Assembly: GCA_030430155.1 (NCBI GenBank)
Contig: JAUIFV010000033.1
Span: 1-35,131, forward strand
DNA: 35,131 bases
Direction of reading: 5' to 3'
Source of the DNA: Gammaproteobacteria bacterium
GTDB taxonomy: Bacteria; Pseudomonadota; Gammaproteobacteria; Xanthomonadales; SZUA-5
The notes under the pieces were generated by a model. It had not been told where the DNA came from. It did no database searches and saw only the letters and a list, made by a program, of their open reading frames with translations. The translations under genes and the position numbers were made by a program. Positions 1 to 35,131 of the stretch are shown here, piece by piece. How positions within the stretch are numbered: the stretch's first letter is position 1; each line of letters opens with the position of its first letter.

Positions 1-2243
1 TGGTGCAGTCCTTCTATGATTTCACTACAGATTGCGATTCCTTCAGGGGTAGGTGAGCGAGTCCCTACTACACTGACAGAACGACTGTGTTGGAAAATAT
101 CCTTGCCTTTGTAATAAAGCACTATCGGGCTATCGGGAAGGTTTGTCGAGACCGCAGAAAAGTTCCAACCACCATCGCTGCTTTTGAGCAAGCGGTTGGA
201 AAGAAAGCCAGCCGTTCCAATGTAAATGTTGTTGCTGTTGTGGTAATCGATGAACATATCCAATGAATCGGCGAATATCTGCTGATAACGTGTCTCACAG
301 AAAACCGCCGGCACGAGTGGACAGCGAACAAAATCGTTGTTCACCTGTGCGACAACGTAGCTGTCGTCCTCTCCAATTGCCAAACTATCAACTTCCCCTA
401 CTACTCCCGGGTATGCGTTCCACACAACCGGCTTCTGTTCCACGCTTGACGACAGCCAAAGACTATTTCGTGAACCAATGACCGCATAGAATGGCGACGT
501 ATTGGTGACTGCCAGGGGAGTAACGAAAAGGCCCTCAGATTCGTTTCCGCAGAACCCGTCTGAGAAAGGATCACAAATGGTATCCGCCTGTCCCGTTTCT
601 GGGATTAGTCTATGCACCGCGCCGTATTGAGCTGAGCCGATTACGAAATCCGGAGTCGAGTCGCGAGCAACGGTTATACTGCCATCGCCGCCTCTGTAGT
701 CGCTCCAGCTGTTTAACAACGAGCCAGCGCTCAAGCTGGGACTCTGAAGGCTCCCGTTATCCTGCGTTCCCCCATATATCCTGTTCTCAACGGATGTCGC
801 CGACCAGAACTGGGTTATCGCAAGGTCTCTATTGAGGCTTGACCAAACGGCACGTGAGCCCATTGGGGTCGGAACGATCTTGTCCACATCATCAACAAAG
901 TGAACGCCGCCATCACTCGCCACGAAGATCCTGCGATCCCTTATCCCAACGGCGGCTGCGGTGCTGGTGAATCCCGGTGGCTCCAGCACGACATGAGTGT
1001 CGAGATGCGGTAGGTGACTGCCGCTGCTACCAGGCTGGATGGTGATTGGAAAGGTTTGCCCTCCATCAGTCGAAACCTTCATCAGCACGAATCCCGAAAT
1101 CACCAGATTGTCGTTCGTTGGATCGACCCACAAGGAGCTAACGTAGCCGTTCATTCCCTGACTGGCGAAAGGTGCGAAGTGGCCGGGGTTCGAAAGCAGA
1201 GACCAACTGGTACCGCCGTCCAGCGAGACATAGATGGACCCATCTCCTTCGGCAGACTGAGCGTAAATTTTTCCAGGTACCGTTTTCGAAAACTGCCCAG
1301 ATATCCGCGACACTCCGCCAAACGCCGTATAAATAATCGACGTGCTCCACGATGCGCCGGAATCAAAGGACGTGTGAGCTCTACCGATATTGTCGAAGGC
1401 GACAACGTTGTCTGAATCGTTTGGATTGACCAAGAGCTCGGTTAGCAAAATGCCGCTGAAGGGGTTGATAGGAACTTTCTTCGCCCAATTGGCTCCGGCG
1501 TCTCCAGACACGAATAGCCCGCCGGAAGCAGCGGCGTAGACTCTGTCCGCGTCCCAAGGATCGACGGCAATTCGTTGTATAAGTGTCCAGTCGAAGAAAA
1601 ACTCGGGGTTGGTCTGCGGCAGTCTCGTCCATGTCGATCCATTGTTATCCGACAGCCAAACTCCACTGCCCGGAGATCCAGATTGCAAACTCGTATTGCT
1701 TTCCCCTGTTCCGACGTAGATCCTACCCGGGTGACTTTGAGATAGGGCAATGCTCGATACAGAAAGTGAAGGAGGAAAGCTTTCCATCTGCCGCCATTTG
1801 AAGCCTTCGTTCTCGAATGACTCCCATAGCCCTCCGTTTACTCCCCCGATTACCAGTCGTTGCGTATCGTGAGGATCAAATGCCATTGACCGTATTCTTC
1901 CGCCAATGTTTCCAGGGCCAACGTTTTGTACCCCTATGAACCCAATCGAGCCGCCCGCTTTCTCGGCATGCAAAGTATTTGACTTATCGATAACGTTGTC
2001 ACGTTGAAAATTCGCCTTCTGTACAGCGTCCGGCCGAATAGAGCCCTCGTTCGGTCCTCTCAGTGCCTTCAACTCAAAAGATTGCCGTGCCGTTGGATTA
2101 TCTTTAAAACCAAAAAACGGTTGGAAGATCCCCAGATTATTCAATTCTTTTTCGGTTTGATTCGCAGCGTTGCTTGGAAAAGAGAAAATGATGGCGGTCA
2201 GTACAAACCCTGCGCCAGATAACAGCTTAGTTCTATCACGCAT
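1..2243 (-). CDS. Secreted BNR/sortilin-like beta-propeller protein, 3' end outside the window; DprA-like tail
   Basis: An open minus-strand frame runs from ATG at 2243 to the window edge (747 codons, no stop). The N-terminus (MRDRTKLLSGAG..., hydrophobic core FVLTAIIFSFPS, then NAA) is a signal peptide. The body carries repeated Asp-box motifs of the BNR/sialidase-sortilin type (SDNNGSTW, SGDAGANW, SFDSGASW, SLDGGTSW, STDGGQTF, SSDGGWNF) spaced as propeller blades, so it is probably an exported or surface protein; the substrate is unknown. A strong Shine-Dalgarno (GGAGGGG, 8 nt upstream) fixes the start. Base composition is visibly less GC-rich than the rest of the window. From about residue 702 the frame changes character: LPDSPIVLYYKGK... 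followed by SVSVVGTRSPTPEG matches the conserved Rossmann core of DprA rather than a propeller. See the finding on a possible chimera. Confidence 0.8.
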   Translation of the reverse strand, partial: MRDRTKLLSGAGFVLTAIIFSFPSNAANQTEKELNNLGIFQPFFGFKDNPTARQSFELKALRGPNEGSIRPDAVQKANFQRDNVIDKSNTLHAEKAGGSIGFIGVQNVGPGNIGGRIRSMAFDPHDTQRLVIGGVNGGLWESFENEGFKWRQMESFPPSLSVSSIALSQSHPGRIYVGTGESNTSLQSGSPGSGVWLSDNNGSTWTRLPQTNPEFFFDWTLIQRIAVDPWDADRVYAAASGGLFVSGDAGANWAKKVPINPFSGILLTELLVNPNDSDNVVAFDNIGRAHTSFDSGASWSTSIIYTAFGGVSRISGQFSKTVPGKIYAQSAEGDGSIYVSLDGGTSWSLLSNPGHFAPFASQGMNGYVSSLWVDPTNDNLVISGFVLMKVSTDGGQTFPITIQPGSSGSHLPHLDTHVVLEPPGFTSTAAAVGIRDRRIFVASDGGVHFVDDVDKIVPTPMGSRAVWSSLNRDLAITQFWSATSVENRIYGGTQDNGSLQSPSLSAGSLLNSWSDYRGGDGSITVARDSTPDFVIGSAQYGAVHRLIPETGQADTICDPFSDGFCGNESEGLFVTPLAVTNTSPFYAVIGSRNSLWLSSSVEQKPVVWNAYPGVVGEVDSLAIGEDDSYVVAQVNNDFVRCPLVPAVFCETRYQQIFADSLDMFIDYHNSNNIYIGTAGFLSNRLLKSSDGGWNFSAVSTNLPDSPIVLYYKGKDIFQHSRSVSVVGTRSPTPEGIAICSEIIEGLH

Positions 2244-2257
2244 ACTGTAGACCCCTC

Positions 2258-2270
2258 CTATATAATGAGG
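2258..2270 (-). promoter_or_regulatory. Shine-Dalgarno / -10-like region of the BNR gene
   Basis: On the minus strand the 25 bases before ATG 2243 read TATATAGGAGGGG then TCTACAGT. GGAGGGG is an excellent ribosome-binding site and the AT-rich TTATAT just upstream could be part of a -10 element. The RBS is certain enough to decide the start; the promoter is a guess. Confidence 0.45.
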
Positions 2271-2434
2271 CGTCTTGCTTTTAGCACCGTTCTTTGGAAC
2301 ACGCAACGACGTTTGAGGGTCGAATATCTGAACTGCGGCAACTGGATGAAGGGATGCGGGTATCTGTTGCCTTCACGCTGAATAGTTCTTGGTCGCGTTG
2401 AGGTACGCGCGAGCGGGTTGGGTAGTTCGTTCCC

Positions 2435-2498: not shown

Positions 2499-4706
2499 TT
2501 AGTGCTGACCCGCCGCGCCGCCTTCACCCGGTACCGGGAAGCCGCGGTCGCGCAGCAAGGCGTCGATGGTGGCATCGCGGCCGCGGAAGGCGCGATAGGC
2601 CTCATCGGGCGGCACCGCGTTGCGCACTGCGAACAGGTGGTCGACCAGCTTCTTCGACAGTTCCTTGTCGTAGAAACCGCCGGGCGCTTCGGCGAAGGCT
2701 TCGGCGGCGTCGGAGGTCAGCACCTCGGCCCACAGATAGCCGTAGTAGGCGGCGGCATAGCCCTCGCCGGAGAACACGTGGCCGAAATGCGGGGTGCGGT
2801 GGCGCATCACGATTTCTTCCGGCATGCCCATGGCGTTCAAGGTGTCGCGCTCAAAGGCGTCGGCGTCGATGCCTTCCGGATCGGCGGTGTGCAGCTTCAG
2901 ATCAATCAGCGCCGAAGCCAGGTACTCGGTGGTCGCAAAGCCCTGGTTGAAAGTCGCCGCGTTCTGGATCTTCTCGACCAGTTCGGCCGGCATCGGCTCG
3001 CCGGTTTCCACGTGCACGAAGTAGTTGTCGATCACCGGCTGGGTGAACAGCCAGCGCTCCAGCAGCTGCGATTGGAACTCGGTGTAGTCGCGCACGCCGC
3101 CGCTGCTCAGCGTCGGGTAGCGCACATCGGCGGCGAGGAAGTGCAGCGCGTGGCCGAACTCGTGGAAGAAGGTGTTGGCATCGTCCCAGGAGATCAGCAG
3201 CGGCTCGCCTTCGGCACCCTTGATGAAGTTGGAGTTGTTGCTGGACAGCACGTTGCCCTTGCCGTCGAAGTCTTCATAGGCGCGGTACATGCTGGCCCAG
3301 GCGCCGGAGCGCTTGCCCTGACGGGCGTAGGGATCCAGATACCACAGGCCGACGTGGGAACCGTCGCTGAGCTTGGTCACTTCCCACACCCCCACGTCCG
3401 GATGGAAGACCGGCACGGTGCCCTTTTCCAGCGGGGTGAATTTGAAGTCGAACAGCTCGCCGGCGACGTAGAACATCGCGTCGGTGAGCTTGTCCAGCTG
3501 CAGATACTGCTTGACCTCGTTGGAGTCCAGGTCGTAGCGGTCCTTGCGCACCTTCTCGGCGTAGTAGCGATAGTCCCAGGCGGCGATTTTGAAGTCGGCG
3601 CCTTCGGCGTCGGCGACCTTCTGCATGTCGGCGACCTCTTCGCGAGCGCGCGCCGTCGCCGCCGGCCACACCGCCTCCAACAGGCCCAGGGCCGCTTCCG
3701 GGGTGCCGGCCATCAGATCGTCCAGACGCCAGGCCGCATAGTTGTCGAAGCCGAGCAGCTCGACGCGCTCGTCGCGCAGCTTGAGGATCTCGGCAATAAG
3801 CGCGTTGTTGTCATGCTCGTCGCCGTTGTCGCCGCGGCTGTAGTAGGTGCGCCAGACCTTTTCGCGCAGATCGCGCTGATCGGAGAAGGTCAGGAAAGGA
3901 TCCATTGACGAGCGGGTGTTGAGCACCGCGTACTTGCCTTCCTCGCCCTTGTCCTTGGCGATGGCCGCGGCACCGTCGATGAAGGACTGCGGCAGGCCGC
4001 CGAGTTGGTCTTCGGTCAGATACAGCACATAGCCTTCTTCATCGGCCAGCACGTTGTTGGAGAACTGGGTGTAAAGCTGCGCCAGGCGCTCGTTGATCTC
4101 GGCGGTACGGGCCTTGGCAGCTTCGTCCAGGTCGGCGCCAGCGCGGGCGAACTGGTTGTAGACCAGATCGACCAGGCGCTGCTGATCGCCGCGCAAAGTG
4201 GCGTACTCGTCGCCTTGCTTGACCGCCTTGACGCGCTCAAACAGCGCCTTGTTCTGCACGATCTGCGATTGGAAATTGGCCAGCTTCGGCGATAGCACCT
4301 GCTGCACCTGGCGGAACTCCGGCGAGGACATGTTGCCGCTCCAAATGCCGAAGTAGGTAAACACCCGACCCAACTCGCGGCCGGTGTCCTCCATCGCCTC
4401 AATGGTGTTGGAGAAGGTCGGCGCTTCGGTCTGGTCGGCGATCTTCTGCAGTTCGGCCAGATTGTTGGCCATCGCCGTTTCCATCGCCGGCTGCAGGTCG
4501 GCGACCTGCATCTTGTCGAACGCGGGCACGCCCTGATACGGGCCGGTCCACTCGGCCAGGAGGGTGTTGTCGGTGGCCGGCGTAGCGTCGGCCTGGGCCG
4601 TTTCGGTGGCCTGCGTGGCAGGCGCATCGGTGGCCTGTTCGGCACAGCCATAGAGGCCGGCAAAGCACACCGCCAGGGCGGCGGCAAGGGCAGTACGTCG
4701 CATCAT
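2499..4706 (-). CDS. M3 family metallopeptidase (peptidyl-dipeptidase Dcp-like), predicted lipoprotein
   Basis: The 735-residue product has the zinc motif HEFGH (H515, E516, H519) and a downstream glutamate (E543 in DYTEFQSQ) as third metal ligand. It also has the family C-terminal block HFGHVFSGEGY then AAYYGYLWAEVL (about 641-663). This is the M3A thimet/oligopeptidase-Dcp layout: an all-alpha peptidase cutting short peptides. The N-terminus is a lipoprotein signal (LYGC lipobox, Cys21), followed by a Thr/Ala-rich linker, so the enzyme is probably anchored in the periplasm, as in other Dcp-like lipoproteins. Two adjacent ATGs (4706, 4703) are possible; GGGAG sits 3 or 6 nt upstream, slightly favouring the second. 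The gene stands alone, divergent from the small membrane protein gene, and ends at a strong terminator. Confidence 0.95.
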   Translation of the reverse strand: MMRRTALAAALAVCFAGLYGCAEQATDAPATQATETAQADATPATDNTLLAEWTGPYQGVPAFDKMQVADLQPAMETAMANNLAELQKIADQTEAPTFSNTIEAMEDTGRELGRVFTYFGIWSGNMSSPEFRQVQQVLSPKLANFQSQIVQNKALFERVKAVKQGDEYATLRGDQQRLVDLVYNQFARAGADLDEAAKARTAEINERLAQLYTQFSNNVLADEEGYVLYLTEDQLGGLPQSFIDGAAAIAKDKGEEGKYAVLNTRSSMDPFLTFSDQRDLREKVWRTYYSRGDNGDEHDNNALIAEILKLRDERVELLGFDNYAAWRLDDLMAGTPEAALGLLEAVWPAATARAREEVADMQKVADAEGADFKIAAWDYRYYAEKVRKDRYDLDSNEVKQYLQLDKLTDAMFYVAGELFDFKFTPLEKGTVPVFHPDVGVWEVTKLSDGSHVGLWYLDPYARQGKRSGAWASMYRAYEDFDGKGNVLSSNNSNFIKGAEGEPLLISWDDANTFFHEFGHALHFLAADVRYPTLSSGGVRDYTEFQSQLLERWLFTQPVIDNYFVHVETGEPMPAELVEKIQNAATFNQGFATTEYLASALIDLKLHTADPEGIDADAFERDTLNAMGMPEEIVMRHRTPHFGHVFSGEGYAAAYYGYLWAEVLTSDAAEAFAEAPGGFYDKELSKKLVDHLFAVRNAVPPDEAYRAFRGRDATIDALLRDRGFPVPGEGGAAGQH

Positions 4707-7596: not shown

Positions 7597-8506
7597 ATCC
7601 CCTAGGATGATGCTCCGCATGCAGCTTCTTCAGCGCCTCCCTGGCCACCAACGTATAGATCTGCGTCGTCGACAGATCGCTGTGGCCGAGCAGCAGCTGG
7701 ACCACGCGCAGGTCGGCGCCGTGGTTGAGCAGGTGGGTAGCGAAGGAGTGGCGCAGGGTGTGCGGGGAGATAGCGCGGTGGATGCCGGCCTGTTGGGCGT
7801 GGCGCTTGATCAGCGCCCAGAAGGCCTGACGGGTCATTGCCCCGCCGCGCTGGGTGACGAACAGCGCCGGGCTGGTCTGACGGCCGAGGATCTGTCCGCG
7901 GGCCTGGGCCAGGTAGCGTTCGATCCAGTGCTGCGCTTCGTCGCCCAGCGGCACCAGCCGCTCTTTGCGACCCTTGCCCAGAATCCGCACCACGCCCTGG
8001 GACAGGCTCAGCGACACCGCCGGCAGTCCGACCAGCTCGCTGACCCGCAGCCCGCTGGCGTAGAGCAGCTCGATCATCGCCTTGTCGCGCAGGCCGATCG
8101 GGTCCTCCACGTCGGGCGCAGCCAGCAGCGCCTCCACCTCGGCCTCGGTCAGCGCCTTGGGCAGCGCCCGCGGCAGCTTGGGCGGACTTAAATCAGCCGC
8201 CGGGTCCGGCGTGCCCACCTGCTCGCGCGCCCGCCAGCCGTAGAACTGACGCAGCGTCGACACCAGCCGCGCCCCCGAACGCGGCTTGCTGCCTGCCTGC
8301 AGCCGCTCCCCCAGATAGCCCAGCAGCAGCGATTGATCGGCCTGCTCCAGCGACGAGCCCTGCTTGCGCAACCAGCCCGCCAGCCCGCGCAGATCCGCGC
8401 CATAGCTGCTCAAAGTCGCCTTCGACAGCCCGCGCTCGGCCCACAGCTGATCGAGAAAGCGCTCGATCAAGCGGCGGTCGTGGTCAAGGTCGGCGTCTCG
8501 GCTCAT
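7595..8506 (-). CDS. xerD: Site-specific tyrosine recombinase XerD
   Basis: A 303-residue protein with the complete tyrosine recombinase catalytic set: R154 (SGLRVSEL), K178 (LGKGRKERLVP), H249 and R252 (SPHTLRHSFATHLL), H275 (LLGHSDLSTTQIY) and nucleophile Y284. The N-terminal SAM-like DNA-binding domain (about 10-95) includes GLSKATLSSYGADLRGL. Length and motifs fit the housekeeping XerC/XerD that resolve chromosome dimers at dif; the ISPHTLRHSFATHLLNHG and QIYT blocks favour XerD. ATG 8506 gives the usual N-terminus. The frame stays open upstream only because it reads through the REP elements. It lies outside the island on the other side of the tRNA, so it is not evidence for an island integrase. 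Confidence 0.93.
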   Translation of the reverse strand: MSRDADLDHDRRLIERFLDQLWAERGLSKATLSSYGADLRGLAGWLRKQGSSLEQADQSLLLGYLGERLQAGSKPRSGARLVSTLRQFYGWRAREQVGTPDPAADLSPPKLPRALPKALTEAEVEALLAAPDVEDPIGLRDKAMIELLYASGLRVSELVGLPAVSLSLSQGVVRILGKGRKERLVPLGDEAQHWIERYLAQARGQILGRQTSPALFVTQRGGAMTRQAFWALIKRHAQQAGIHRAISPHTLRHSFATHLLNHGADLRVVQLLLGHSDLSTTQIYTLVAREALKKLHAEHHPRG

Positions 8507-8538
8507 CGGCTCACTATGGTCGAAGTCCGCGCCCTTTT

Positions 8539-24976: not shown

Positions 24977-25741
24977 TTGGAGAAAAAACTAAAGTCGCTG
25001 CTTGCTGAACCAGCGAGTTCTGGGGTGATGACGACGGTCTGGTTACGTCAAAACGGCATCAGCAGTCAGTTGGTCAGCAAGTATGTTCGCTCCGGCTGGC
25101 TGAGTTCGATCGGCCATGGTGCCTACGTCCGCGATGTGTCTCGCATTGTCTGGCAACACGGCCTGAATGCGCTACAGACCCAGCTGGCAGTGCCCGTTTG
25201 GCTTGGAGGGTTGTCGGCGCTGGCGCTGCATGGGTTGGGGCACCAGCTTGCCATCGGTCGGGAGCGGGTATGGCTCCATGCGCAAGATTCGCCGCACCTA
25301 CCCAAATGGTTCAATCAGCACGATTGGTCGGTGGATTTCGTGCTGATCAACCGGCGTCTGTTCGTTGAGCTTCCCAATGATCGGTTCATCGTTCGTGAAA
25401 GCGGCGGGGTTTCTTTGACGGTCGCTCGGCCGGAACAAGCGGTACTGGAATATTTGGACCGGGTCCAAAGCAGGTCTGCATTCGAAGACGCGGCGGACCT
25501 GATGGCCGGGACGAGGGCGCTACGACCGAAGTTGATGCAGTCACTACTTGAATCCTGTCGCTCCATTCGGGCGAAACGGCTGGCCCTGTACTTCGCTGAT
25601 ACGCTGCAGCTTCCGTGGATGGCCCGGCTGGATTTGAGCAACATCGATCTGGGAAGCGGTCCGCGGCAGATCGTTGCCGATGGTCGCCTGGATTCCACTT
25701 ATCAGATCACTGTGCCTCGAAGCCTCGAACATGGCATCTGA
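24977..25741 (+). CDS. AbiEi-type antitoxin (type IV toxin-antitoxin)
   Basis: About 254 residues from TTG 24977. The product begins LEKKLKSLLAEPASSGVMTT, the usual N-terminus of the AbiEi winged-helix repressor. A longer frame to ATG 24905 overlaps an AT-rich patch (TTGAATATAAAC) that looks like the promoter, so TTG is preferred; GGGGTAGG lies just upstream. The winged helix is about 10-60 (VTTVWLRQNGISSQLVSKYVRSGWLSSIGHGAYVR after the first residues), and the C-terminal antitoxin domain follows (GGLSALALHGLGHQ, then VARPEQAVLEYLDRV). AbiEi represses its operon and counteracts AbiEii without direct binding. It overlaps the toxin gene by 11 bp. Confidence 0.88.
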   Translation: MEKKLKSLLAEPASSGVMTTVWLRQNGISSQLVSKYVRSGWLSSIGHGAYVRDVSRIVWQHGLNALQTQLAVPVWLGGLSALALHGLGHQLAIGRERVWLHAQDSPHLPKWFNQHDWSVDFVLINRRLFVELPNDRFIVRESGGVSLTVARPEQAVLEYLDRVQSRSAFEDAADLMAGTRALRPKLMQSLLESCRSIRAKRLALYFADTLQLPWMARLDLSNIDLGSGPRQIVADGRLDSTYQITVPRSLEHGI

Positions 25742-29987: not shown

Positions 29988-30161
29988 TGAGGAGAACCGC
30001 ACAAGCGCCCTGTGGCATCGATAAGATGTGCGGTCGGTCGGTGCTGACGCTCTGGGTCGGATATCAGCGTCCAGGCGGGTGGCGTCCGATCACAGATCGG
30101 ACCCACAAAAAGAAGGTTCTCGCACTCTGATGATGCTCTCCATGCCACCAGACACTAATCC
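29988..30161 (+). other. Gap between DUF2796 and permease where an ABC ATPase gene is expected
   Basis: The 174 bases start with a good RBS-like GTGAGGAGAAC directly after the stop but have no start codon followed by an open frame. They contain a perfect 8-bp hairpin (GTCCGATC-ACA-GATCGGAC, 30084-30102) without a T-run. No Walker motif or LSGGQ can be read in any frame. In related clusters the ATP-binding gene lies here. Confidence 0.6.
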
Positions 30162-31421
30162 ATGCGCGGCGGACTGACCGGATTCGCTCTGCGTTCGCTT
30201 TGGAATCGGCGCGGCAGCGTGCTGCTGTCGGTGCTGACCCTGGCAATCACGGTGGCGCTGCTGCTGATGGTGGAGCGGGTGCGGATGGAGACCCGTGAGG
30301 GCTTTCTGCGCTCGGTTTCGGGCGTGGATCTGATCGTTGGTGCCCGCGGTCATCCGGTGCAGCTGCTGCTGTATTCGGTGTTCAGGCTCGGCGATGCGAC
30401 CAACAACCTGTCCTGGGAGAGCTATCAGGCGCTGGCCGAGCACCCGCAGGTGGGCTGGACGGTGCCGATCTCGCTGGGCGATTCGCATCGCGGCTACCGC
30501 GTTGTCGGTACCACCGCCGAATATTTCGCCCGTCTGGGCGGCGGCGACGGTGCTGCGGAGTTCAGCGCTGGCGGAGCTTTTGGAGAAACTTTCGAGGCGG
30601 TGATCGGCGCCGAGGTAGCGCGCCGGCTGAATTACAGCGTGGGGACGGCGATCGAGCTGGCCCACGGCACCGGCCGGATCAATCTTCACAACCACGACGA
30701 TCGCCCGTTCCGGGTCAGCGGCATCCTTGCTCCCACCGGCACGCCGCTGGATCAGGGCATCTACGTGTCGCTGCAGGCGATCGAAGCCATCCATCTGAAC
30801 TGGCGCAGCGGCACCCGTATCGGCAGCGCCCCGGATCTGGACGAAGCGCAGCTGGCTGCGCTGCAGCCGCGCAGCATCACCGCGGTGTTTGTCGGCGCGC
30901 AGCGGCGCGCGGCGGTGTTCTCGCTGCAGCGGATGGTCAATGGCTATCGCGCCGAGCCGCTGACCGGGCTGCTGCCCGGCGTCACCATGCAGCAGCTGTG
31001 GCAGCTCACCGGCGGTGCCGAGACCGCGCTGCGCTTTGCCAGCTACGCGCTGGTTGGCTGCGCGCTGATGGTGCTGCTTTCGGGTTTGCTCAGCACCCTC
31101 AACGAGCGCCGCCGCGAGATGGCACTGCTGCGCGCGGTGGGCGCCGGGGCTCGCCACGTCTTCGCGCTGCTGCTGGTGGAGGCGCTGCTGCTGGTGCTGT
31201 TGGCGCTGCTGCTGGGATTGCTGTTGGCCATCGTCGGGCTGCTGCTGGCCACACCCTGGCTGCACGCCCAGTTCGGTATCCAGCTGCGTGAGATCTGGCC
31301 GGGCATGACCGAGATGCAGGTGCTGCTGGGACTGTTGCTCAGCGGTGCGCTGGTCGGCCTGATACCCGCAATCACCGCCTATCGCCGCACCCTGCTGGAT
31401 GGGCTGACTGTCGACCGTTGA
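30162..31421 (+). CDS. ABC transporter permease, FtsX/MacB family
   Basis: 419 residues. A first membrane helix (SVLLSVLTLAITVALLLMV, about 20-38) is followed by a large periplasmic MacB-PCD-like domain (MRMETREGFLRSVSGVDLIV through about residue 275). Three C-terminal helices follow: FASYALVGCALMVLLSGLLS, a Leu-rich helix about 330-362, and VLLGLLLSGALVGLIPAITAYR. The loop NERRREMALLRAVGAGARHV is the FtsX signature contacting the ATPase. It belongs with the DUF2796 and DUF3299 proteins in a zinc-uptake-like cluster. Such a permease needs an ATPase, which is not present in the operon. Confidence 0.93.
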   Translation: MRGGLTGFALRSLWNRRGSVLLSVLTLAITVALLLMVERVRMETREGFLRSVSGVDLIVGARGHPVQLLLYSVFRLGDATNNLSWESYQALAEHPQVGWTVPISLGDSHRGYRVVGTTAEYFARLGGGDGAAEFSAGGAFGETFEAVIGAEVARRLNYSVGTAIELAHGTGRINLHNHDDRPFRVSGILAPTGTPLDQGIYVSLQAIEAIHLNWRSGTRIGSAPDLDEAQLAALQPRSITAVFVGAQRRAAVFSLQRMVNGYRAEPLTGLLPGVTMQQLWQLTGGAETALRFASYALVGCALMVLLSGLLSTLNERRREMALLRAVGAGARHVFALLLVEALLLVLLALLLGLLLAIVGLLLATPWLHAQFGIQLREIWPGMTEMQVLLGLLLSGALVGLIPAITAYRRTLLDGLTVDR

Positions 31422-31434
31422 TGGGAAAGGATTG

Positions 31435-31971
31435 ATGTCTAGTTTGAAGTTCTACTCCGCTGCCGTGCTGTTGCTGATGGCCATGCTGGTCGGATCCACG
31501 GTCTGGGCCAAGTCCAACGTGCGCCTGATCGACTGGCTGGAGCTGATGCCCGAGGCCGAGCGCAAGGCGCTGGAAGAGCTGTCGATGAGCATCGATCATA
31601 GCGGCGACGGCCCCAGCTACGACTTTTCCAGCGTAACCACGGTGGCCAAGATGGACGGCGTGACCGGACGTCTGGCCGGCTACGTGGTGCCCATCGAGTA
31701 CGACGATAAGGGCCGCATCAGCGAGCTCTTCGTGGTGCCCTATTTCGGCGCTTGCATCCATCTACCCCCGCCGCCGCCCAACCAGATCATCCACGTCAAA
31801 CCGGACGAGCCCATCGAAGCGCGGGACATGTGGGAGCCGTATTGGGCCATCGGTACGCTGCGCATCGCCAATGTCAGCAACGAGATGGCCGAAGCCGCCT
31901 ACAGCATGGAGGTCAGCGAGCTGCGGGTGATCGAGATGGATGAGTACGAGGAGCTGGAGGAGAGTTATTAG
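31435..31971 (+). CDS. DUF3299 periplasmic protein
   Basis: 178 residues from ATG 31435 (GGGAAAGG upstream; 13 bases after the permease stop). Signal peptide MSSLKFYSAAVLLLMAMLVG ending VWAKS. The family block is clear: GYVVPIEYDDKGRISELFVV then PYFGACIHLPPPPPNQIIHV, with the CxH-PPPP motif. DUF3299 genes occur beside DUF2796 and ABC genes in metal-uptake clusters and their product may help load or sense metal. The C-terminus is acidic (EYEELEESY). Confidence 0.9.
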   Translation: MSSLKFYSAAVLLLMAMLVGSTVWAKSNVRLIDWLELMPEAERKALEELSMSIDHSGDGPSYDFSSVTTVAKMDGVTGRLAGYVVPIEYDDKGRISELFVVPYFGACIHLPPPPPNQIIHVKPDEPIEARDMWEPYWAIGTLRIANVSNEMAEAAYSMEVSELRVIEMDEYEELEESY

Positions 31972-31983
31972 CTAGCGAGGGCG

Positions 31984-32020
31984 TAGGGCAAAGGGCCCAG
32001 GGCAAAGGGCCCAGGGCCCA
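31984..32020. repeat. GGGCCC-type dispersed repeat, copy 3
   Basis: AAGGGCCCAGGGCAAAGGGC then CCAGGGCCCA, just after the DUF3299 stop. Same family as 5404-5427 and 7508-7596. Confidence 0.7.
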
Positions 32021-32078
32021 GCGTACGTGGGGTGAGCGAAGTGAATCGCATCAATTGAAGCAGCGTCGCACCGCGTAT

Positions 32079-32115
32079 CGACCGTGATGCGGTTCGTGCC
32101 TCACCACATCCTACG
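32079..32115 (-). repeat. Dispersed intergenic repeat, GTAGGATG type, copy 2
   Basis: Minus-strand CGTAGGATGTGGTGAGGCAC then GAACCGCATC; near-identical core to 17819-17860. Confidence 0.7.
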
Positions 32116-32136
32116 TTTCTCCCTGCGTCGCTGACC

Positions 32137-32171
32137 GTAGGTTGGGCAAAGCGCAGCGTGCCCGACGCTTT
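32137..32171. repeat. GTAGGTTGGGC-type hairpin repeat
   Basis: GGCAAAGCG and CGCTTTGCC (within 32143-32171) form an inverted repeat around GTGCCCGAC. The opening GTAGGTTGGGCAAAGCGCAGC is a widely dispersed proteobacterial intergenic repeat. It lies at the end of the MerC-domain gene and may end its transcript. Confidence 0.6.
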
Positions 32172-32173
32172 GC

Positions 32174-32569
32174 CTAATCCGCCGATTGCGCCTGTGCGCA
32201 GGGCGCGGGCAGCTTGCTGCGGCCATACCAGCGCCAGCCGTGGGCGGCGGCCAGGGACAGCGCGCCCAGCGTGGTCAAAGCGACCTCGTGGTCGTGCAGG
32301 GCCTCGACAAAGGCCGCGGCCAGCAGCAGCGCCAAGCCGCTCAGCGCCAGCAGCAGAAAAGCCGCATCGAGACGGTGATTGGCCGAAAACACGATCACGC
32401 TCAGGGTGACCGGCAGGGCCAGCAGCGCCATCAGCTGATGCACCCATTCGGCTTCCGACAGCACTCCGGCCAGCGGCAGCGTGGCGGCGAGCAGCGGCAG
32501 CGCCAGGCAGTGCACCAGGCACAGCGATGACAGCGAGATGGCGGAAACGTCAAGAACGGAAGTACGCAT
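32174..32569 (-). CDS. MerC domain-containing membrane protein
   Basis: 131 residues with four hydrophobic segments. The MerC signature SSLCLVHCLALPLLAATLPL near the N-terminus holds two Cys and one His that can carry a metal through the membrane. Others: LMALLALPVTLSVIVFS, FLLLALSGLALLLAAAFVEA (with a HDHE loop after it) and the last short segment. MerC proper imports mercury; chromosomal MerC-domain proteins without mer genes are often under zinc control. No mer genes are nearby. A GTAATGTTATTAC palindrome lies 72 bases upstream of the start. Convergent with the DUF2796-DUF3299 cluster. Confidence 0.85.
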   Translation of the reverse strand: MRTSVLDVSAISLSSLCLVHCLALPLLAATLPLAGVLSEAEWVHQLMALLALPVTLSVIVFSANHRLDAAFLLLALSGLALLLAAAFVEALHDHEVALTTLGALSLAAAHGWRWYGRSKLPAPCAQAQSAD

Positions 32570-32640
32570 CGATGCTGGAAACCTACGAAAGGCCGGTTGC
32601 CGCTTGCAGGGAAGGCAGGCAAGACGGCGCGAGATGAAAA

Positions 32641-32657
32641 ACGTAATGTTATTACAT
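32641..32657 (-). promoter_or_regulatory. Candidate Zur box upstream of the MerC-domain gene
   Basis: ACGTAATGTTATTACAT is a palindrome (GTAAT-GTT-ATTAC) in an AT-rich spot between the MerC-domain gene and ykgJ-like gene. It resembles proteobacterial Zur operators and shares GTTATTAC with the candidate at 29288-29299. Confidence 0.5.
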
Positions 32658-32698
32658 CTCTAGTCTGATCGCATGACTGTTCGCAAACCGGGATTTAC

Positions 32699-33010
32699 TC
32701 AGGGCGCGGTGGCCGCCTCCAGCCGGCTCAGCTCCGCCAGAGCCTCATCGCGATTGCCCAGACACATCGACGGCTGGGGGCGCAGCTGGCGGCACACGGC
32801 CGGGCGCTGAGGCAGGCCGAACAGCTCGCAGCGCAGCTGCTGGTCCAGGTGCGCACAGGGCACGCCGGCCGGTTTGCCGTGCGGCATCTTCGGCATAGCC
32901 GTGCTGATCGACGGGGCGATGCAGCAGGCGGCGCAGCCGTCACGGCAGCCCGACACCGCCAGCGCCGGCAGGCCCTGCAGCTCGATGTTGACCGGCACGG
33001 CGGCGCTCAT
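32699..33010 (-). CDS. YkgJ-family cysteine-cluster protein
   Basis: 103 residues with the YkgJ/UPF0153 cysteine set: GCRDGCAACC (22-31), then CAHLDQQLRCELF, VCRQLRPQPSMC. The eight Cys probably bind a zinc or iron-sulfur centre; function is not known. ATG 33010 overlaps the aroE stop by 4 bp, so it is co-translated with aroE. Confidence 0.88.
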   Translation of the reverse strand: MSAAVPVNIELQGLPALAVSGCRDGCAACCIAPSISTAMPKMPHGKPAGVPCAHLDQQLRCELFGLPQRPAVCRQLRPQPSMCLGNRDEALAELSRLEAATAP

Positions 33011-33843
33011 GCGCTGATAAGATCGCGCAGCTCGGTCAGCACTGGCGCGGTGGGCGGGCGCTGACCCCGCCAGATGGAATAGCTTTCGGCGGCTTGCTCG
33101 ACCAGCATGCCGAGGCCGTCGTGGCAGTGCTCGGGGTCGACGCCGATGCTGCGAGCCGCCTGCAGAAACGGCTGCGCTGCGCCGCCATAGCTCAAGTCGT
33201 AGGCGTGGCCGTCCTCGGCGGCCAGACTCTTGGGCAGATGGACCCCGTCGCCGGCCAGTCCGGCCGCGCTGGCGTGAATGACCAGATCGAAGGGACCAAG
33301 GCCGGTCAGCGCCGGCAGGGTCACCGCGTCGATGTGGCCCAGGTTGATCAGATGACCGGCGACCCGCTGTGCGGTTTCCAGGGTGCGATTGGCCAACACC
33401 AGCTGCGCCGGACGCTGCGCGAGCAACGGCCCCAGCACGCCGCGCGCCGCGCCGCCGGCACCGATCATCAGCACCCGGCGACCGGCGAGCGGAATGCCCA
33501 GGCGCTGCAAATCGAACAGCAGACCGCGGCCGTCGGTGTTGTCGCCATACCAGCTGCCGTCGGCCTCGGCCTTGAGGCAGTTGACCGCCCGGGCCCGGTG
33601 CGCCGCTTCGCTCAAGCGCGTCGACAGGTTGGCGGCGATGCCCTTCAGCGGCGCGGTGATGTTGGCGCCGACCCCGCCCTCGGCGCGGAAATCGGCCAGC
33701 GCCTGCTCGAACTGCTCAGCCGGCGCGTGGATGGCCCGATAGTCGATGGTCTGACCCAGCAGTTCGGCGAAGCGGGCGTGGATCCAGGGCGACTTGGACT
33801 GGGCGATGGGGTCGCCGAAGACGGCGTAGCGTTGCTCGATCAC
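33007..33843 (-). CDS. aroE: Shikimate dehydrogenase (NADP+)
   Basis: About 278 residues; reduces 3-dehydroshikimate in the aromatic amino-acid pathway. Motifs in order: YAVFGDPIAQSKSPWIHARF (shikimate SxS), GANITAPLKGIAANL (catalytic Lys), NCLKAEADGSWYGDNTDGRG (catalytic Asp in DNTDG), the NADP Rossmann loop VLMIGAGGAARGV followed by NRTLETAQ, and the C-terminal DGLGMLVEQAAESYSIW. The frame is open to TTG 33870, overlapping the FAA gene. GTG 33843 places YAVFGDP near the N-terminus as in the family, so it is preferred; neither has a good RBS. It lies in a minus-strand row after the FAA hydrolase. Confidence 0.95.
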   Translation of the reverse strand: MIEQRYAVFGDPIAQSKSPWIHARFAELLGQTIDYRAIHAPAEQFEQALADFRAEGGVGANITAPLKGIAANLSTRLSEAAHRARAVNCLKAEADGSWYGDNTDGRGLLFDLQRLGIPLAGRRVLMIGAGGAARGVLGPLLAQRPAQLVLANRTLETAQRVAGHLINLGHIDAVTLPALTGLGPFDLVIHASAAGLAGDGVHLPKSLAAEDGHAYDLSYGGAAQPFLQAARSIGVDPEHCHDGLGMLVEQAAESYSIWRGQRPPTAPVLTELRDLISA

Positions 33844-33853
33844 GGCGTCAGCG

Positions 33854-34543
33854 TCACGCTGCGATGGCAAAGCGCAGCGGCGGCAGGCCGTCGATCTGCG
33901 CGCTGACCTGATCGCCAGGCTGCAGCGGGCCGACGCCGTGCGGGGTGCCGGTAAAGATCAGATCGCCAGGCTGCAGCTCGAACAGCTCGCTCAGCTCGAC
34001 CAGTATCTGCGCCACGTCCAGAATCATCAGATCCAGCGTGCCTTCCTGGCACAGCTTGTCATTGACGCTCAGAGCGATGCGCTGCGCCTGCGGCGTCCAC
34101 TGCGATGCCAGCCTCAAAGCGCCAATGGGCGCGCTGCGATCGAAGCCTTTGGCGGTGTCCCAGGGCTGACCGGCGTCCTTGGCCTGATGCTGCAGATCGC
34201 GGCGGGTCAAATCCACGCCCACCGCGTAGCCGGCGATGCACTGACGCGCCTGAGCCGCGCTTAGCTGCGCGCCGCCGTCGCCCAGGGCGATCACCAGTTC
34301 CACCTCGTGATGCAGATCGGAGGTGGCCAGCGGGTAGGGGATCACCGCACCGTCGCCGACCACCGCGTCGGCCGGCTTGGCAAAGAACACCGGCCGCTGC
34401 CGCTCCGGCGTGCCGCCCATCTCGCGCACGTGTTCGGCGTAGTTGCGGCCCACGCAGTAGATGCGGTGAACCGGGAAGTGCCGTGAGTCATCGGCGATGG
34501 GCAGGGTGGGCGCGCGCGGCGCCGTAAACAGCAGCTCGCTCAT
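33854..34543 (-). CDS. Fumarylacetoacetate hydrolase (FAH) family protein
   Basis: 229 residues from ATG 34543 (RBS GGTAGGG). It has the FAH fold: IYCVGRNYAEHVREMG, FFAKPADAVV, the metal site DLHHEVELVIALG (two Glu) with a following Asp (VGVDLTRRDLQ), and the strand DLIFTGTPHGVGPLQPGD. FAH members hydrolyse or decarboxylate acylpyruvates such as fumarylpyruvate. The exact substrate is not readable. It follows the partial hydrolase gene by 6 bases and precedes aroE, so it is probably one transcript. Confidence 0.92.
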   Translation of the reverse strand: MSELLFTAPRAPTLPIADDSRHFPVHRIYCVGRNYAEHVREMGGTPERQRPVFFAKPADAVVGDGAVIPYPLATSDLHHEVELVIALGDGGAQLSAAQARQCIAGYAVGVDLTRRDLQHQAKDAGQPWDTAKGFDRSAPIGALRLASQWTPQAQRIALSVNDKLCQEGTLDLMILDVAQILVELSELFELQPGDLIFTGTPHGVGPLQPGDQVSAQIDGLPPLRFAIAA

Positions 34544-34549
34544 CAATCC

Positions 34550-35131
34550 CTACCCGCCTATCAGCGGCGGCAGCAGCACGGATTCGGTGCCATAGAGGTG
34601 ATAGCCCAGCAGTCGCCAGTACCACAGCAGCGGCAGCGACAGCACCGCGGCCAGGGTGAACAGGGCGTAGTGCCAGCGCCGCCACCAGGGCCACTGCCCG
34701 CGCAGCACTGACGGCATCAGCACCAGACAAAGCAGGCTCAGCGCGGCGGCGCCCAGGCCGATGCCCAGCGACCAGATCGCCAGCTCATTGGGGAAGTGCA
34801 CGATCAGCGGCGACTCCGGCTTGGCGCTGTCGGTGAACACCATCATCAGGCCAACGCTGAAGGCGATCCAGCCCAGAGCGGCCAGGTAGCCGACCACCGC
34901 GGCGCTGTGGCTGGCCGGTCCGGCTGGCTGCGGCTTGCGCAGCCGCAGACCCAAAACGCGCAGCAGCGACAGCACCAGCAGTGACCCGAACACGCCCCAG
35001 AACAGCTCACTGCGGGCATACCAGGGCACCCGCTCCAGGACCACGTGGCCGTAATTCGGATAGAGGCGCTGGGCGGGTCCGTCGGCGGTGGAGGAGAAGG
35101 CGATGCGGCGACCGTCGCGATCGGAGCGGAA
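34550..35131 (-). CDS. C-terminal part of a membrane-anchored serine hydrolase (partial, 5' end outside the window)
   Basis: The frame is open from the right edge (about 193 visible codons). The first visible residues, FRSDRDGRRIAFSSTADGP then NYGHVVLERVPWYARSELFW, resemble the tail of class-C beta-lactamase-like serine hydrolases, where a ...ERVPWY segment precedes membrane helices. Four hydrophobic segments follow (GVFGSLLVLSLLRVLGL; VVGYLAALGWIAFSVGLMMV; LAIWSLGIGLGAAALSLLCL; YALFTLAAVLSLPLLWYW). The catalytic SxxK lies outside, so the enzyme assignment is an inference. It starts the minus-strand row leading to aroE. Confidence 0.6.
   Translation of the reverse strand, partial: FRSDRDGRRIAFSSTADGPAQRLYPNYGHVVLERVPWYARSELFWGVFGSLLVLSLLRVLGLRLRKPQPAGPASHSAAVVGYLAALGWIAFSVGLMMVFTDSAKPESPLIVHFPNELAIWSLGIGLGAAALSLLCLVLMPSVLRGQWPWWRRWHYALFTLAAVLSLPLLWYWRLLGYHLYGTESVLLPPLIGG

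Follow-up and report, generated by a model that had tools for sequence, protein, structure and literature searches.

The contig edge and its open frame

The window, i.e., the whole stretch of 35,131 bases analyzed here, comprises an entire contig (C254:1-35131) from its first base, and the assembly consists of 287 contigs (5.06 Mb). An open minus-strand frame (3..2306) runs off the left edge and is continuous across a point where the encoded protein changes family, in agreement with the preliminary description, in which both halves were said to share one frame. The first possible start of the propeller gene in this frame is a TTG at 2306, and an ATG is found 21 codons downstream. Residue numbering begins 21 codons further upstream than in the preliminary description, so that residue 723 corresponds to residue 702 there. 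The following features were distinguished:

1..144, minus strand: foreign tail, a piece of a Saprospiraceae dprA (144/144 bases identical to the donor locus L025; PF02481 match; whole 367-aa DprA in L025)
122..137, plus strand: tandem 8-bp repeat, CTATCGGG twice, native to dprA (sequence inspection and comparison with L025)
126..143, minus strand: NLPDSP codons, a stretch plausibly common to both genes, with the join probably within it (L025 identity ends at 144; LP[DNEQ]xP in homologues)
145..2306, minus strand: truncated gene for a BNR/sortilin-type propeller, its real 3′ end absent (frame, profile matches and homologue comparison)

The last 47 codons of the frame matched the Pfam model DNA_processg_A (PF02481) with 36.8 bits when the tail alone was used (cut-off 29.6), and with the whole frame as query the match was also above the cut-off (33.4 bits). 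Coverage of the model was incomplete, i.e., positions 24–70 of 212 for the tail alone and at most 17–70 of 212. For TIGR00732 (dprA), the tail gave an E-value of 3.1e-07 (29.8 bits) and the whole frame 25.6 bits, far below the cut-off of 191.15. Among solved structures, the tail matched DprA 3uqz (E 0.0083) and, more weakly, two chains of DprA type (E 0.3). The earlier reading of the end of the frame as a DprA core, and not as a propeller, is borne out by the two profile matches of the tail.

The remainder of the frame matched Sortilin-Vps10 (PF15902) with 41.9 bits (cut-off 33), and the BNR model scored 16.4 bits on the frame, under its cut-off of 27. The gene thus resembles BNR/sortilin-type propellers in exceeding the family cut-off and in having many related frames in the genome, but differs in being cut at the contig end and in having a GC content below that of the paralogue loci. 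Relatives of the BNR/sortilin-type propeller are numerous in the host genome, with nine places outside C254 at E < 1e-11 and long open frames of 767–1234 aa.

Source of the terminal 144 bases

A search with the last 48 residues of the frame against genome contigs, in which 84,980 species are represented by a single genome each, gave 26 loci. One of these, L025, showed 100% identity over query residues 2–48, and the other 25 of the 26 showed at most 59%. L025 is contig JALQTV010000217.1 from the metagenome-assembled genome (MAG) of Saprospiraceae bacterium DAH.35, with a length of 4990 bases and a coverage of 3.35 according to the record title. On DNA level, positions 1–144 of the window (minus strand) were identical to L025 in 144 of 144 bases; mismatches start at 145, where identity collapses. 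Beyond base 145, L025 stays dprA, whereas the window frame encodes a BNR/sortilin-type propeller. Positions 612–1715 of L025 encode a 367-aa DprA with other long frames on either side, and this protein aligned over its full length with DprA proteins of Ferruginibacter and Chitinophagaceae MAGs (43 and 40% identity, respectively). Since dprA is whole in L025, the window carries a slice of the donor gene. The 47-residue tail is therefore a genuine piece of DprA, but only a fragment and from the gene of another organism. Of two plasmid searches, one gave three records, all with less than 60% identity, and the other gave no match.

The host genome carries a separate dprA on contig C212, which matched PF02481 over positions 3–211 of 212 (E 1.1e-73). 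When its 206-residue Pfam-matched part was compared with the tail, 25% identity over 40 residues was found, and an origin of the tail from this gene was rejected. The tail is thus far closer to the foreign organism (144/144 bases) than to the DprA of the host. When the 4037-base L025 locus was compared with the host genome, the match at the contig edge had an E-value of 5.5e-69, and the best others (39 and 44 bases) both had an E-value of 0.0173.

In the opposite direction, the L025 genome matched positions 1–2300 of the window only at bases 1–147 (next E 0.54), and for positions 30131–35131 nothing better than E 0.049 was obtained. The L025 genome does encode remotely related propeller proteins (33% identity at best), and the DNA search with positions 1–2300 found no copy of the propeller gene of the window in it.

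The join and the propeller homologues

Propeller homologues were compared in 30 of 73 loci (L002-L024 and L067-L073), using the 78 frames of at least 300 aa. Twenty-nine frames matched at E 1e-5, and as one of them (L010) was the window itself, 28 homologues remained, some of them truncated where the fetched stretch ends. Twelve of the 28 reached residue 727 or beyond, representing 11 genes (that of L003 is the same as that of L073) from the host genome and its relatives; the remaining 16 aligned only up to residues 303–713. The 12 frames are not a random sample, as six of seven fetched stretches were genes of relatives that had been picked for matches reaching residues 725–728. In 11 of the 12, the alignment stopped at residue 727 or 728 and the frame, read by eye, continued as propeller; the twelfth (L022) aligned to residue 737 with gaps and was also propeller. 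Reading the tail as propeller was consequently rejected, and the unbroken propeller alignment without similarity to DprA that the preliminary description had named as the case against its reading was not observed. A fusion of propeller and DprA was found in none of the 12 frames reaching the switch point, the continuation having been judged by eye.

All 12 of these frames contain LP[DNEQ]xP at the switch point. The LPDSP stretch of the window, which had been counted as part of a DprA core signature, is for this reason not diagnostic of DprA. At the join, the donor dprA reads NLPDSPIVLYYKG, in the context RNLPDSPIVLYYKG. The host paralogue on contig C204 has NLPDSP as well, in SWSNVSDNLPDSP followed by ANAVVLRPG. 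Exact identity with L025 begins at 144, one base outside the NLPDSP codons (126–143). On these comparisons, the propeller gene of the window plausibly encoded NLPDSP itself at 126–143, and the join probably sits on an NLPDSP-like stretch that two unrelated genes both bear. A long DNA word common to both genes at the join is plausible, but against it the C204 paralogue writes NLPDSP with codons other than those of the window. The low-coordinate limit of 126..143 had to be inferred, since the original 3′ continuation of this gene was not recovered. The frame would be kept across such a join by chance in about 1 in 3 cases, and in a larger share of cases if both genes read the shared stretch in one and the same frame.

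The switch had also been reported to coincide with a tandem 8-bp repeat. CTATCGGG does occur in tandem at 122–137, but it was found to fall entirely inside the native dprA of L025, and at the join the NLPDSP codons overlap it. Since the repeat is native to dprA, it is no repair or insertion scar, and its interpretation as a scar of the join was rejected. Perfect 8 + 8 repeats had five start positions in the window, compared with 0.85 on average and 6 at most among 200 mononucleotide shuffles, and the tandem repeat alone is a weak signal. Other perfect 8 + 8 tandem repeats in the window are located at 8372–8388, 8498–8513 and 25714–25729.

A DNA search of the assembly with window positions 1–300 recovered nothing but the window itself and a 29-base match (E 0.71); neither another copy nor an overlap was seen. 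A 45-residue stretch of a paralogue gave 28 matches in the assembly, and the one located at a contig end (C170) was the only one examined further. This end (L084, G000:C170:9000-10186, last 290 bases) covers the final 96 codons of a propeller gene. It has no word of more than 9 bases in common with the terminal 400 bases of the minus strand of the window, and its GC content at third codon positions (GC3) is 0.78 compared with 0.55 for the propeller gene of the window, so that it provides no evidence either way as the missing continuation.

As to base composition, the edge had been described as about 45% GC and lower than the rest. GC content is indeed 0.45 for positions 1–120 compared with 0.62 for the whole window; however, it is 0.52 for the propeller gene (145–2300), and because this gene is itself already low in GC, there is no sharp drop at the edge relative to it. 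With a GC3 of 0.554, the propeller gene stands out as AT-rich in this genome; the adjacent gene, which presumably encodes an M3-type peptidase, has 0.857 and the C204 paralogue 0.869. Matches to the peptidase gene begin at window positions 2534–2536 in G004, G007 and G008, three relatives belonging to the same family, and their fetched flanks showed no propeller match beyond one of 16 residues (E 0.068). The stretch from a relative of the same genus (G001) starts inside the peptidase gene and is consequently uninformative on the propeller flank. The propeller gene may have been acquired horizontally, or a second misjoin may be located near 2250–2450.

Interpretation of the contig end

The preliminary description left the choice between an in-frame fusion and a chimeric contig end. 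The first is not supported; the identity of 144/144 bases with dprA of another organism speaks for the second, and as the window is C254 from its first base, the join lies next to the contig terminus. Almost certainly, this left end is a chimera between species, an artefact that mimics a fusion gene. The real gene would encode a BNR/sortilin-like propeller and be cut short where the contig ends; the terminal 144 bases would originate from dprA of a Saprospiraceae bacterium that was presumably present in the same metagenomic sample. A short word shared at the NLPDSP-like stretch could link both genes, the physical cause being presumably a misjoin in an assembly graph of low coverage or else a chimeric read of the library; the 144-base tail would be about the size of one short read.

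For chimeras of metagenome assembly, shared k-mers, sequencing errors and low abundance are named among the causes (PMC7299287). The contig end resembles the inter-genome chimeric contigs of short-read metagenome assembly considered there in that two genomes are joined in one contig. It differs from those in that the foreign part is restricted to 144 terminal bases and that unrelated genes were probably linked by a coding stretch that they share by chance, whereas the emphasis, at least in part of that source, is on closely related species.

A very recent real horizontal transfer, by which a fragment of Saprospiraceae dprA was fused in frame behind the secreted propeller gene, would be in line with the open frame spanning the join, and both genomes may share a habitat. 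However, the 144 bases are all identical and the run ends at the contig edge, further convincing donor DNA was not found in the host genome, the join is located on an NLPDSP-like stretch found in both gene families, and a secreted propeller with a partial Rossmann core would have no obvious role; we therefore consider such a transfer very improbable. That L025 is instead the chimeric record and the window correct is still less credible, to the point of being negligible: L025 is a short contig of low coverage (4990 bases, 3.35), but the DprA encoded there is continuous and can be aligned with two further DprA proteins on either side of the shared block, and the change of family at the boundary is in the window frame.

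With a chimeric contig end as the preferred reading, the 144 foreign bases are to be excluded from this protein. A single search of the tail against other MAGs revealed the chimera, and the case calls for caution, as two unrelated genes with a short coding stretch in common can produce what looks like a plausible in-frame fusion at the end of a contig.
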